From NCBI RefSeq assembly GCF_000425585.1, contig NZ_AUDS01000019.1, positions 62,001 through 126,000 of the forward strand: DNA of 64,000 nucleotides. The letters run 5' to 3'. Under the pieces are notes generated by a model, which did no database searches, was not told the origin of the DNA, and worked only from the letters and a program-made list of their open reading frames with translations. The position numbers were made by a program, and so were the translations under genes. This stretch comes from Terrimonas ferruginea DSM 30193 (GTDB taxonomy: Bacteria > Bacteroidota > Bacteroidia > Chitinophagales > Chitinophagaceae). Shown in pieces: positions 44,615-49,241 of the stretch. Position 1 is the stretch's first letter. The number at the start of each line of letters is the position of its first letter.

Positions 44615-44971
44615 ATGGAACGTTTAACCACACAGGAAGAAGAAACGATGCTCGTGATCTGGCGTACAGGAGAAGGAAACATCAAGGCTTTTATGGAGCA
44701 GATGTCCGATCCGCCTCCTTACACCACATTGGCATCCACCGTCAAGAACCTGGAAAAGAAAGGTTATTTGCAAAGCCGGCTTATCGGTAATACTTATCTC
44801 TACAAGCCGGCTATTGACGAGGACGATTACAAAAAGAAATTCATGGGCACGGTGGTGCGTGAGTATTTCGACAACTCCTATAAGGAGTTGGTGAACTTTT
44901 TCGTAGAACAGAAAAAGCTCAGTGCCAAAGAGCTCAAAGAGATACTGCAGATGATTGAAAAGGGAAAGTGA
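44615..44971 (+). CDS. BlaI/MecI/CopY family transcriptional repressor
   Basis: 118-residue winged-helix repressor: QEEETMLVIWRTGEGNIKAF forms helix 1 and 2, YTTLASTVKNLEKKGYLQS is the recognition region (about 37-55), and the C-terminal half (about 75-118) is the dimerisation helix pair. Two identical half-site dyads sit in its promoter, consistent with autorepression. It is followed after 27 bp by an M56 metallopeptidase gene. In BlaR-type systems the membrane peptidase triggers cleavage of the repressor. The inducing signal is unknown here. Confidence 0.93.
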   Translation: MERLTTQEEETMLVIWRTGEGNIKAFMEQMSDPPPYTTLASTVKNLEKKGYLQSRLIGNTYLYKPAIDEDDYKKKFMGTVVREYFDNSYKELVNFFVEQKKLSAKELKEILQMIEKGK

Positions 44972-44998
44972 TCTTTTCATAATTAAATTATTTCTTGC

Positions 44999-46501
44999 AT
45001 GTCAACCTTGTTGTTGTATTTGCTGAAGCTGTCATTATCGCTCGGCGTGATGTACATTTTTTACCGCCTGGTATTGCAGCGCTTCACCTTTTACCGTCAT
45101 AACCGCTGGTACCTGTTGTTGTACTCGATGGTTAGTTTTCTTATTCCATTGATCGACCTCACCGATTTGTGGTCGCCGTCTTCACCGGGTATGCAGCAGG
45201 TAAAAGAATGGGTGCCTCCTGTAACACAGTATGCACGTCCTGCCGCAGAAGCCGCCGGCCTCAGCACCTGGGTCATGGGCCTGTTGGTTGCCGTAAGCCT
45301 GTTTCTTTTGATACGTATCTGTGTCCGTTTATGGTCGCTCCGGCAATTGCGCAGCAAAGCTTCGCTGCTGCGAGATGGGCAGGTGAAAGTGTACCAGGTG
45401 GAAGAGCCGATCGCTCCTTTTTCTTTCGGCAATGCCATTTATATCAATCAGCATCAACATACCGCCGGTGAGCTGGAGAATATATTGCGGCACGAGTTTG
45501 TGCATGTCCGCGAACGTCATACGGTGGACATGTTATGGGCAGAATTTCTATGCCTGATCAATTGGTACAATCCTGCCGCCTGGCTGATCCGGAAAGCTAT
45601 CCGTCAAAACCTGGAGTTCATTGCGGATAACCGTGTGCTGGCCACCGGTGTTGATAAAAAAGAGTACCAGTACCTCTTGCTGCAGGTGCTTGGTCAGCGA
45701 CCTGTACCGGCAGGCATTTCCTTCAATGTCTCTTCACTTAAAAAACGTATAGCCATGATGAACAAAAACAAAACAGCAAGGGCACATTTGTCCTGGTTCC
45801 TGCTACTGTTACCGGTAGCCTCCATCGTCTTACTTTCTTTCCGCAGCAACTGGCCGCCGGCAAAAACGACTATTGCGATAGCACCCGCATGGCCGCTTAC
45901 AGACACGGTGCCCAAGGTGAAAGAAGTAAGAGTTCAGGAAAAAGCATTTAAAAAACCGGCGGCTAAAAAATCAGCCAAAGAGCCGGTAGTTAAAGAGGTG
46001 CGTTTCAAAGCGCCGAAAACGCAACCTGCAAAAACGGAAACCATTGAGATCGTACCTGTAAAAGAAAAAACAACAACGCTGCAATTGGCACCCGTCGAAA
46101 AGAAAAAAGAGACCCTCGAAATCACGCCGGTCAGGGAGAAAAAAGTGCCGGCAGAGAAAATGAAAACCAGGGAGAGGAAGGTCCAGGAGATCGAGATCAT
46201 CGAAACGCCCGTGAAAAAAAGTAAAGCGGCGAAACTGCCCACGGAACAGCAATGGGAGAAAGCTGCTGCCGATAAAAAAGAAAAACGCGTAGTGGCGGCC
46301 GACAAGCAGATGAAACAGGTATACACAGGCAACGTTGCATACACCAATGGTAGAGTGACATTGATGTCCGACTCGGTTGTCATTACCAAGACCGGCGATG
46401 CCAAAAACGGAACGTACCAGATGCGCGCCGACCATATCCGCGTGATCCCGGTGGAGCATACATCCAAAGATGCACCGGCACCTGCCCCCAAATTGAAGTA
46501 G
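44999..46501 (+). CDS. M56 (BlaR1-like) metallopeptidase with long charged C-terminus
   Basis: 500 residues. The N-terminal half has membrane helices (about 5-22, 32-50, 83-102 and 258-275) with a cytoplasmic zinc protease loop. The motif HEFVH is at about 161-165, followed by LCLINWYNPAAWLIRKA. The protein probably senses a periplasmic signal and cleaves the BlaI partner. The sensor part is not a penicillin-binding domain. It is a low-complexity Lys/Glu/Pro stretch (about 295-430), then a short repeat-like segment near 440-487 (VYTGNVAYTNGRVTLMSDSV) that resembles an OstA/LptA-type strand. Confidence 0.82.
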   Translation: MSTLLLYLLKLSLSLGVMYIFYRLVLQRFTFYRHNRWYLLLYSMVSFLIPLIDLTDLWSPSSPGMQQVKEWVPPVTQYARPAAEAAGLSTWVMGLLVAVSLFLLIRICVRLWSLRQLRSKASLLRDGQVKVYQVEEPIAPFSFGNAIYINQHQHTAGELENILRHEFVHVRERHTVDMLWAEFLCLINWYNPAAWLIRKAIRQNLEFIADNRVLATGVDKKEYQYLLLQVLGQRPVPAGISFNVSSLKKRIAMMNKNKTARAHLSWFLLLLPVASIVLLSFRSNWPPAKTTIAIAPAWPLTDTVPKVKEVRVQEKAFKKPAAKKSAKEPVVKEVRFKAPKTQPAKTETIEIVPVKEKTTTLQLAPVEKKKETLEITPVREKKVPAEKMKTRERKVQEIEIIETPVKKSKAAKLPTEQQWEKAAADKKEKRVVAADKQMKQVYTGNVAYTNGRVTLMSDSVVITKTGDAKNGTYQMRADHIRVIPVEHTSKDAPAPAPKLK

Positions 46502-46623: not shown

Positions 46624-47190
46624 ATGGCAACTACCTCAGATATCAGCCGGGGCATGATCATCAAACTCGATGGCAGCCTTTATTCTATCGTAGAATTCGG
46701 TGAAAACAAAACTGCCCGCGCAGCCGCCAAAGTATGGGCCAAGCTGAAAGGTGTAGACAACAACCGCTCCATTGAAAAAACATGGAACTCCGGTGACAAT
46801 ATCTACCCCGTGCGCGTGGAAAGAAGAGCGTATCAGTTTCTTTACAAAGACGACTCCGGCTACAACTTCATGGACAATGAATCGTTTGAGCAGGTAGCAC
46901 TTGCCGAAACACTGATCGATGCTCCCCAGTTCCTGAAAGACGGACAGGAAGTAAGCGTGCTCATCAACACCGAGACTGAACAACCGATGAGTGTTGAATT
47001 GCCTGACAAGATTGTATTGCTGGTAACCTACGCAGAGCCGGGACTGAAAGGCGACACCGCCACCCGTACCCTGAAGCCTGCAACCGTGGAAACCGGCGCT
47101 TCCGTAAGCGTACCTTTGTTTGTAAACGAAGGCGAACTGATCCGGGTGAATACCAAAACCGGTGAATACGTTGAACGCGTAAAAGAATAA
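46624..47190 (+). CDS. efp: Elongation factor P with arginine at the loop tip
   Basis: 188-residue EF-P with KOW/N-terminal domain (1-63), OB domain II and C-terminal OB domain III (VNTKTGEYVERV). EF-P relieves ribosome stalling at polyproline. The tip of the beta3-beta4 loop reads GENKTARAAAKV with R32 at the position of the modified residue (Lys34 in E. coli, Arg32 in Pseudomonas), and counted from KLKG the spacing is identical to the rhamnosylated class. The N-terminal side of the loop is two residues longer. ATG 46624 is set by the promoter at 46557. No epmA/B or earP homologue is in the window. Confidence 0.93.
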   Translation: MATTSDISRGMIIKLDGSLYSIVEFGENKTARAAAKVWAKLKGVDNNRSIEKTWNSGDNIYPVRVERRAYQFLYKDDSGYNFMDNESFEQVALAETLIDAPQFLKDGQEVSVLINTETEQPMSVELPDKIVLLVTYAEPGLKGDTATRTLKPATVETGASVSVPLFVNEGELIRVNTKTGEYVERVKE

Positions 47191-47245: not shown

Positions 47246-47349
47246 ATTGTTTTTGGCGAAAATTAGGGTAAAAATGATCTGCGAATCCTCTATTGCCCCT
47301 ATCTTAGCCATCCTTTTCTTTAAATAAAATACCTGTTAAATTGAAACAC

Positions 47350-47838
47350 ATGGACTTTAAACAGATCCAGGAGTTGATCAAAATGGTCAACAAATCAAAT
47401 ATCGGTGAGGTGACCATCGAGCAGAAGGATTTCAAGGTAACTATCCGGCAGAAAGAAGACAATATCACGCAAGTGGTAGCTGCCCCGGCTCAGATGGCCG
47501 CTCCGGTATACGCACCTCAGCCTGCCGCTCAGAGCCAGCCGGTAACAGGAGCCGCCCCTGCCAGTGAAAAACCCAAGGCCGAAGCACCTGCTTCCAACCT
47601 GGTAACAATCAAGAGCCCGATGATCGGTACATTCTACCGCAAATCATCTCCCGACAAACCTTCATTCGTTGAGCCCGGCGACGAGATCACACCCGGTAAA
47701 GTAGTGTGCATCATCGAAGCCATGAAACTCTTCAATGAAATCGAAAGCGAAATAAGCGGTAAAGTAGTAAAAGTGCTGGTAGACGACGCCTCTCCGGTGG
47801 AATACGATCAGCCACTGTTCCTGGTTGAACCTGCTTGA
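47350..47838 (+). CDS. accB: Acetyl-CoA carboxylase biotin carboxyl carrier protein
   Basis: 162-residue BCCP. An N-terminal helical region (1-40) is followed by a Pro/Ala-rich swinging linker (AAPAQMAAPVYAPQPAAQ, about 44-61, continuing to 80). The biotinyl domain (85-162) has K126 in EAMKL as the biotin attachment site. It carries CO2 to acetyl-CoA in fatty-acid synthesis. The start at ATG 47350 is preferred over the in-frame TTG at 47341. It is followed by accC after 65 bp, the usual accBC operon; accA and accD are elsewhere. Confidence 0.95.
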   Translation: MDFKQIQELIKMVNKSNIGEVTIEQKDFKVTIRQKEDNITQVVAAPAQMAAPVYAPQPAAQSQPVTGAAPASEKPKAEAPASNLVTIKSPMIGTFYRKSSPDKPSFVEPGDEITPGKVVCIIEAMKLFNEIESEISGKVVKVLVDDASPVEYDQPLFLVEPA

Positions 47839-47903: not shown

Positions 47904-49241
47904 ATGATCAAAAAGATATTGATTGCCAACCGTGGTGAGATCGCCCTGCGCGTCATTCGTACCTGCCGGGAAATGGGTATCAAAACGGTGGCCGTCTATT
48001 CTACCGCTGATCGCGACAGCCTGCATGTTAAGTTTGCCGACGAAGCAGTTTGTATCGGCAAACCACAGGGAAGCGATTCTTACCTCAATATTCCTCATAT
48101 CATGGCCGCGGTGGAAATCACCAACGCCGATGCCATACATCCCGGTTATGGTTTCCTTGCCGAGAATGCAAAGTTTGCCAGCATCTGCAAACAACACGGC
48201 ATCAAGTTTATCGGGCCCACGGCTGACATGATCAGCAAAATGGGCGACAAGATCACCGCAAAAGATACCATGATCAAAGCCGGCGTACCCGTGGTACCCG
48301 GTGGCGAAGGACTGCTGCAAAGCGTGGAAGAAGCCCGTGGCCTTGCACGCGAAATGGGGTACCCCATTATCCTCAAAGCTACTGCCGGTGGCGGTGGTAA
48401 AGGGATGCGCATCGTATGGGAAGAAAGTGAACTGGAAAAAGCCTACGATACTGCAAAAGCGGAAGCCGGTGCCGCCTTCAAGAACGACGGTATCTACATG
48501 GAAAAATTTGTGGAGGAACCCCGCCACATCGAGATCCAGGTAGCCGGCGACCAATACGGCAACGTTTGTCACCTCAGCGAACGCGATTGTTCTATCCAGC
48601 GCCGTCACCAGAAACTCGTTGAAGAGTCTCCTTCTCCTTTCATGACCGATGAACTCCGTGCACGGATGGGGGATGCCGCCAAGAAGGCTGCTTCCGCTAT
48701 CAATTACGAAAGCGTAGGCACCGTCGAATTCCTGGTAGACAAACACCGCAATTTCTACTTCATGGAAATGAACACGCGTATCCAGGTAGAACACTGCGTA
48801 ACAGAAGAAGTGATCAACTTCGACCTTATCAAAGAACAGATCAAGATCGCCATGGGTGAGCGCATCTCCGGCAGCGATTATATTCCCCAGATGCATTCCA
48901 TCGAATGCCGTATCAATGCCGAAGATCCGTACAACGATTTCAGACCTTCACCGGGCAAGATCACCACATTGCACCAGCCAGGTGGCCACGGTGTACGGGT
49001 AGACAGCCACGTGTATGCAGGTTATGTGATCCCGCCATACTACGACTCCATGATCGGCAAATTGATTACGGTTGCCCGCACACGCAACGAAGCCATCGAT
49101 ACCATGTACCGCGCACTCAGCGAATATGTAATCGAAGGTGTCAAGACTACTATTCCGTTCCATCTGCAGTTGATGCAGGACGAACGTTTCCGCAGCGGCG
49201 ACTTTAATACCAAATTCATCGAAGGATTCAAATTGCAATAA
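47904..49241 (+). CDS. accC: Acetyl-CoA carboxylase biotin carboxylase subunit
   Basis: 445-residue biotin carboxylase, carboxylating the BCCP biotin with bicarbonate and ATP. The N-terminal biotin carboxylase domain begins [20 protein letters not shown]. The glycine loop GGGGKGM near 162-168 and the catalytic region [10 protein letters not shown] (about 285-294) are intact, and the C-terminal domain ends KFIEGFKLQ. The length is typical. It is second in the accBC operon and ends before a perfect palindromic terminator at 49263. Confidence 0.96.

Follow-up and report, generated by a model that had tools for sequence, protein, structure and literature searches.

The efp locus

The window analysed here, the whole stretch of 64,000 nucleotides from Terrimonas ferruginea DSM 30193 (Chitinophagaceae), carries a gene for translation elongation factor P (EF-P), with a peptidase gene upstream and an accB-like and an accC-like gene downstream. 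The features are as follows.

44999..46501, + strand: BlaR1-type M56 peptidase, upstream neighbour of efp (PF05569)
46624..47190, + strand: efp, encoding an arginine-tip elongation factor P of 188 aa (open reading frame, curated model and Pfam)
46705..46746, + strand: codons of residues 28–41, NKTARAAAKVWAKL, the beta3-loop-beta4 stretch (invariant in 18/18 aligned family members)
46717..46719, + strand: codon CGC of Arg32, the loop tip (multiple alignment)
47350..47838, + strand: biotin carboxyl carrier protein (accB-like), not a modification enzyme; downstream neighbour of efp (PF00364)
47904..49241, + strand: accC-like biotin carboxylase, downstream neighbour (PF00289, PF02786, PF02785)

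The efp reading frame runs from an ATG at 46624 to a TAA stop at 47188–47190. Its product scored over the cut-off of the curated model TIGR00038 (206 bits, cut-off 185.8) and carries PF08207, PF01132 and PF09285, the three EF-P Pfam domains. A profile search of the host genome (4.69 Mb, estimated completeness 99.99%) returned this gene as the sole match; the preliminary description of this DNA had allowed for a paralogue with a canonical loop that performs the function, and no second EF-P was found in the genome. A structure prediction of the window EF-P from a 36-row family alignment had a mean pLDDT of 50, too poor for use, and no relatives came from a scan of viral contigs made to obtain more diverse EF-Ps.

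No functional link between the upstream M56 peptidase and efp is seen. Positions 44615–46501 hold a BlaI/BlaR1-like pair, the peptidase of which has a long tail rich in Lys, Glu and Pro. Downstream, the ATG at 47350 was taken as the start of the accB-like gene; the ORF list has a TTG at 47341 upstream of it, and PF00364 falls on residues encoded from 47353. Genes of accB and accC size also lie 3′ of efp in 8/8 named loci examined (ORF sizes only). No modification gene linked to efp turned up in the window (Pfam), in the eight named loci (ORF sizes) or in a loose biotin-motif scan.

Arg32 tips a loop of canonical length

The tip loop of the window EF-P comprises seven residues, K29-T-A-R32-A-A-A35. 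In multiple alignments Arg32 aligned gap-free with Lys34 of E. coli EF-P (loop KPGKGQA) and with the arginine of the Shewanella and Pseudoalteromonas factors (loops RSGRNAA and KSGRNAA), and so stands at the loop tip where EarP-type EF-P has its arginine. This had been the central claim of the preliminary description, whose comparison was with Pseudomonas EF-P, which has the arginine rhamnosylated by EarP. Its count of eight residues between Arg32 and KLKG had to be corrected to seven. The longer loop that it had considered was likewise not borne out; E. coli EfpL, by contrast, has a loop two residues longer than that of the window EF-P. The observation is confirmed, and the interpretation attached to it, that the lineage either modifies arginine by another route or uses an unmodified factor with a longer loop, is partly supported.

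The arginine loop is a family trait

All 186 family genomes that yielded the loop or an EF-P had K-T-A-R32 (195 sampled, spanning 101 genera). The 186 comprise 165 genomes identified by an exact degenerate-codon pattern of the loop, taken as genome-level matches rather than placed one by one inside efp, and 21 identified by EF-P search; a reversed control pattern matched no row among those displayed. These 21, out of 30 pattern-negative genomes, all keep N-K-T-A-R32 and differ by small changes after it (A33S, A34G, V37I/L, K40R). The nine family genomes with no EF-P match, three of which are at least 90% complete, were excluded from the 186. For G475, G531 and G551, family genomes without an EF-P match at 97–100% estimated completeness, an assembly gap is likely, since the loop occurs in further genomes of these genera; loss is possible.

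Residues 28–41, including Ala31, were identical in 18/18 aligned family members, among which overall identity to the window protein goes down to 70%; the loop is therefore no chance feature. In a named-genome scan, the loop stretch of the best 80 of 554 confirmed relatives read NKTARAAAKVWAKL in 78 and NKTARAAAKFWAKL in two. These best 80 were labelled mostly as Chitinophagaceae (Niastella, Flavihumibacter, Segetibacter, Puia, Terrimonas, Niabella), and some were metagenome bins with wider or unexpected labels, Sphingomonadales in two cases.

Outside the family, 201 EF-Ps were read across the order and the phylum (121 and 80 in two sets), and KTAR was found in 0/201. These cover 123 of the 124 non-family order genomes with a match; the remaining one, G309, has a match without the loop. 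The arginine loop is a family trait and no local oddity. The tips of 52 order EF-Ps outside the family were lysine in 50, arginine in one and glutamine in one, and those of 69 EF-Ps outside the order, which are better-scoring matches and not evenly drawn, were lysine in 43, asparagine in 25 and arginine in one. The expectation that most Bacteroidota factors carry lysine in a KPGKG-type loop is only partly right: the 25 asparagine-tipped factors show that the phylum is far from uniform in its use of lysine.

The asparagine tips read NPGNW or TPGNLR (L009, L014, L018–L021, L024–L026, L030 and others). Arginine tips of other kinds occurred in 4/201 outside EF-Ps: KPARG, with the proline at –2 kept, in L076 (G353) and L314 (G370), two genomes of one genus, and QTGRG, without proline at –2, in L291 (G397) and the second-copy L106 (G196), which belong to different families. 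No EarP was found in these four genomes. Five genomes of family f3 (G080, G099, G122, G138, G214) have two or three EF-P matches each, and one G214 copy (L139) has the lysine loop RTPGKGG. In L087 (G348) an aberrant loop, KMQQRRP, stands in place of KPGKGxA, perhaps through a frameshift pair or an assembly error.

Origin of the loop

The descent of the gene apart from its loop was examined in a quick maximum-likelihood tree built on 111 sequences after thinning, with the alignment columns of residues 26–42 removed. Thinning left at most three rows per order family and at most two per other family, L076 and L106 being retained in every case; L291, L249 and L250 were added, and L087 and L067 (long N-terminus) were left out. 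The 20 family rows consist of the 18 aligned members plus L249 and L250, the tree being made without the best 80 of 554 named loci and 19 other family loci. Duplicates L032 and L053 were dropped from the loop reading, and L087 from the order profile used in the multiple alignments.

In this loop-free tree the family grouped as a single clade (SH-aLRT 99) among the other members of its order, with the lysine-type families f52 and f65 as neighbours (join support 87). The order itself was not monophyletic, with a few rows of the same class falling among it, and the positions of EfpL and the EarP-type factors were unsure (long branches). Since the family lies as one clade within its order, a lysine-type gene was re-tipped once, at the family base, as judged from the sampled tree. 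Acquisition of the whole gene from an arginine-type lineage was considered and is out, the non-loop part being closest to the order and grouping inside it. Outside residues 27–42 the window EF-P is identical to lysine-type L050 at 99/172 positions, to T. thermophilus EF-P at 66/166 and to the EarP-type pair at 56/169 and 53/170; within 27–42 the corresponding values are 5/16, 8/16, and 7/16 and 9/16.

Among 62 positions conserved in both the family and the remainder of the order, 7/13 in residues 26–42 differ between the two, vs 1/49 elsewhere (Fisher p 2.5e-5, a guide only, the rows being related). The seven changed positions all lie within residues 28–39. This comparison used the thinned set of the tree, with 39 order rows, in which position 32, with arginine in two, missed the conservation filter. 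The Arg32 codon, read in 119 loci (some of them one genome under two names), was CGT in 62, CGG in 29, CGC in 14, AGG in nine and AGA in five; the use of five codons shows that selection, rather than recent copying, maintains Arg32.

Known modification enzymes

EF-P is usually described as requiring a tip residue with a long, modified side chain. Searches for earP, epmA, ymfI and rhamnose (rml) genes had been proposed in the preliminary description. EarP (TIGR03837) was detected in 0/195 family genomes at E 0.001, the window genome included, and in 0/296 phylum genomes, in agreement with the earlier placing of this factor outside the EarP lineages. As the built-in control genomes of this search were silent, two plasmid records that carry earP next to efp served as controls. 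The model scored 496 and 412 bits on them, while the window genome, searched alongside together with three named genomes of the family, gave no match, nor did those three. In both control records earP adjoins efp, unlike the arrangement at the Chitinophagaceae loci.

EpmA (TIGR00462) was over its cut-off in 0/149 order genomes, 18 of which are Chitinophagaceae. Matches below the cut-off occurred in all 149, most of the best in frames of ~500–600 residues, which fits lysyl-tRNA synthetase. Similarly, YmfI (NF047420) was over its cut-off in 0/18 family genomes and in 1/149 order genomes, namely G419, which belongs to another family and has a lysine tip (241 bits vs 238); matches below the cut-off in all 149 fit related short-chain reductases.

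The outcome for the rhamnose pathway was mixed. RmlD was over its cut-off in 139/195 family genomes, including the window genome (319 bits), and below it in 56/195, where weaker relatives are still present. Ten of the genomes below the cut-off are near-closed (G017, G469, G509, G516, G538, G544, G548, G579, G584, G602), selected by us for a completeness of ≥99%, a contig count of ≤20 and a best RmlD E above 1e-60, and all ten have the arginine loop. Because these ten keep the loop, a need for dTDP-rhamnose in every member of the family is improbable, unless the weaker RmlD relatives (E ~1e-50) substitute.

Relation to known EF-P types

No published work on Chitinophagaceae EF-P was found in the literature searched, which was mostly outside subscription journals. 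An Arg32 EF-P without EarP is not seen here for the first time: Thermus thermophilus, Deinococcus radiodurans and Borrelia burgdorferi are already reported as such (PMC4739656), and the window protein agrees with them in having an arginine tip and no EarP. Thermus EF-P (1ueb) shares with it the arginine tip, the seven-residue loop, K36 and the A-K-V-x-A-K run that follows the tip; it too lacks a proline at –2, and EarP is reported absent there. It is unlike the window protein in having G31 and L30 in place of A31 and T30. The addition made here is a large new lineage with its own strictly kept loop which, as read from its sequence, lacks both the EarP-type Gly31 and the lysine-type proline at –2 and glycine at –1.

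EarP-type factors (Shewanella and Pseudoalteromonas in our alignments, Pseudomonas and Neisseria from papers) also have an arginine tip, a seven-residue loop and no proline at –2, which arginine-type loops are described as avoiding (PMC6544042); they differ in combining Gly31 with earP, whereas the window EF-P has Ala31 and its genome no EarP match. The lysine-type KPGKG factors of other Chitinophagales families are encoded by the orthologous gene and fall in the same length class, but have a lysine tip, proline at –2 and glycine at –1, and F36, R38 and T39 in place of K36, W38 and A39 in Chitinophagaceae. A beta-lysylated EF-P would have a lysine tip, a –2 proline and EpmA; here R32 and T30 occupy those positions, in an order where the EpmA search was negative.

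How Arg32 may act

On balance we favour the reading that Arg32 acts unmodified, as a tip of the Thermus kind, in the sole, vertically inherited EF-P of these bacteria. The lysine tip was swapped once, at the family base of the sampled tree, for the seven-residue arginine loop KTARAAA. Arg32 would work bare, as proposed for Thermus, and might contact tRNA, with the co-fixed K36 and W38 perhaps helping to hold the loop. In T. thermophilus, Arg32 is described as lying near the peptidyl transferase centre and touching tRNA C75 and 23S C2064/C2065, a contact offered as an adaptation to the absent modification (PMC2821294). A bare arginine of this kind is the simplest mechanism. The constancy of K-T-A-R32 and the failure to find EarP, EpmA or YmfI in the genomes searched, together with the precedents of Thermus and of EfpL, whose Arg33 is reported as unmodified by mass spectrometry in E. 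coli in a loop two residues longer (PMC11611912), was counted in its favour. So were the RmlD-below genomes that keep the loop, the lack of a linked modifier, and Ala31, the corresponding P. putida variant, G31A, being rhamnosylated in vitro at <1% of the wild-type rate (PMC6544042).

For some other factors, however, an unmodified arginine does not suffice in a loop of seven residues. The arginine-type factors of P. putida and S. oneidensis, when unmodified, are reported as inactive or inhibitory in E. coli, the bare N. meningitidis factor as weak in its own host and deleterious in E. coli (PMC4739656), and E. coli EF-P K34R as having ~20% activity vs 50% with unmodified lysine (PMC6544042). 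By analogy with P. putida, where G31 is termed crucial for function (PMC6544042), Ala31 would need compensation.

The poor performance of bare factors in E. coli also speaks for a new enzyme, fixed at the base of Chitinophagaceae, that modifies Arg32 with another sugar, an acyl or a methyl group, which we hold to be a real possibility though well short of an even chance. The strict retention of K-T-A-R32 and the failure to find EarP, EpmA and YmfI in the family genomes searched favour it too, and the extreme conservation of the loop would suit the recognition site of an enzyme beyond the known models. On the other hand, no candidate gene lies beside efp, and bare arginine tips have precedents. 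A fuller version of this proposal, on which we would place somewhat less weight, has a new arginine modification and its own enzyme gained at the family base, the near-invariant KTARAAAKVWAKL hairpin serving as recognition site, and the QTGRG and KPARG tips elsewhere in the phylum (also without EarP) representing further uses of such a route.

With none of the three tested modification enzymes found and a near-rigid loop in a sample of 101 genera, the family offers a natural test of bare arginine, and poses the question of whether a bare arginine in a loop of normal length can do the job of EF-P. If it is insufficient, Chitinophagaceae are a place to seek a new protein modification. Modification by a new enzyme, if true, would be the more important result.

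Rhamnosylation of Arg32 by a diverged or replaced EarP appears unlikely. RmlD is over its cut-off in 139 of the 195 genomes, and T30, like the corresponding residue of EarP-type loops, is not proline. Yet no EarP match was obtained at E 0.001 in the family, the ten near-closed genomes below the RmlD cut-off keep the loop, and EarP acts on G31A only very slowly in vitro. Ala31 is nevertheless no bar to rhamnosylation, because overproduced EarP is reported to have modified all P. putida variants in vivo except the R32 ones, G31A fully (PMC6544042). The presence of RmlD in the window genome, and the weaker relatives that might substitute for it elsewhere, are a further counterpoint to a bare Arg32. 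For the G31A result in vivo and the weak RmlD relatives, we weighed EarP-like rhamnosylation up and the unmodified arginine down.

A loss of activity at polyproline stalls, with other factors taking over, would fit the seven order-conserved positions changed within residues 28–39, but is very improbable, since the new loop is strictly conserved while synonymous change is free, which decay would not give. Least probable of all is that the window protein is an EfpL (YeiP) that replaced EF-P: E. coli EfpL shares an arginine tip within the short motif TARxAA, but the model scores (TIGR02178 97.5 bits, cut-off 264.05; NF003392 113, cut-off 216; against 206 for TIGR00038) and the loop-free tree, which sets the family within its own order, refute the identity, and the window protein lacks the two-residue extension and the conserved proline three before the tip, having Lys29 there. 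EfpL is described as mostly co-occurring with beta-lysylated EF-P, and as distributed in Gammaproteobacteria, Thermodesulfobacteria, Acidobacteria and the Planctomycetes group (PMC11611912).

An unmodified and a rhamnosylated Arg32 differ in computed peptide mass, by 146.058 Da, and a modification at this residue can be expected to impede trypsin. Trypsin would release TAR and AAAK around the tip, both too short to see; for the chymotryptic loop peptide GENKTARAAAKVW the computed MH+ is 1401.760 bare and 1547.818 rhamnosylated.
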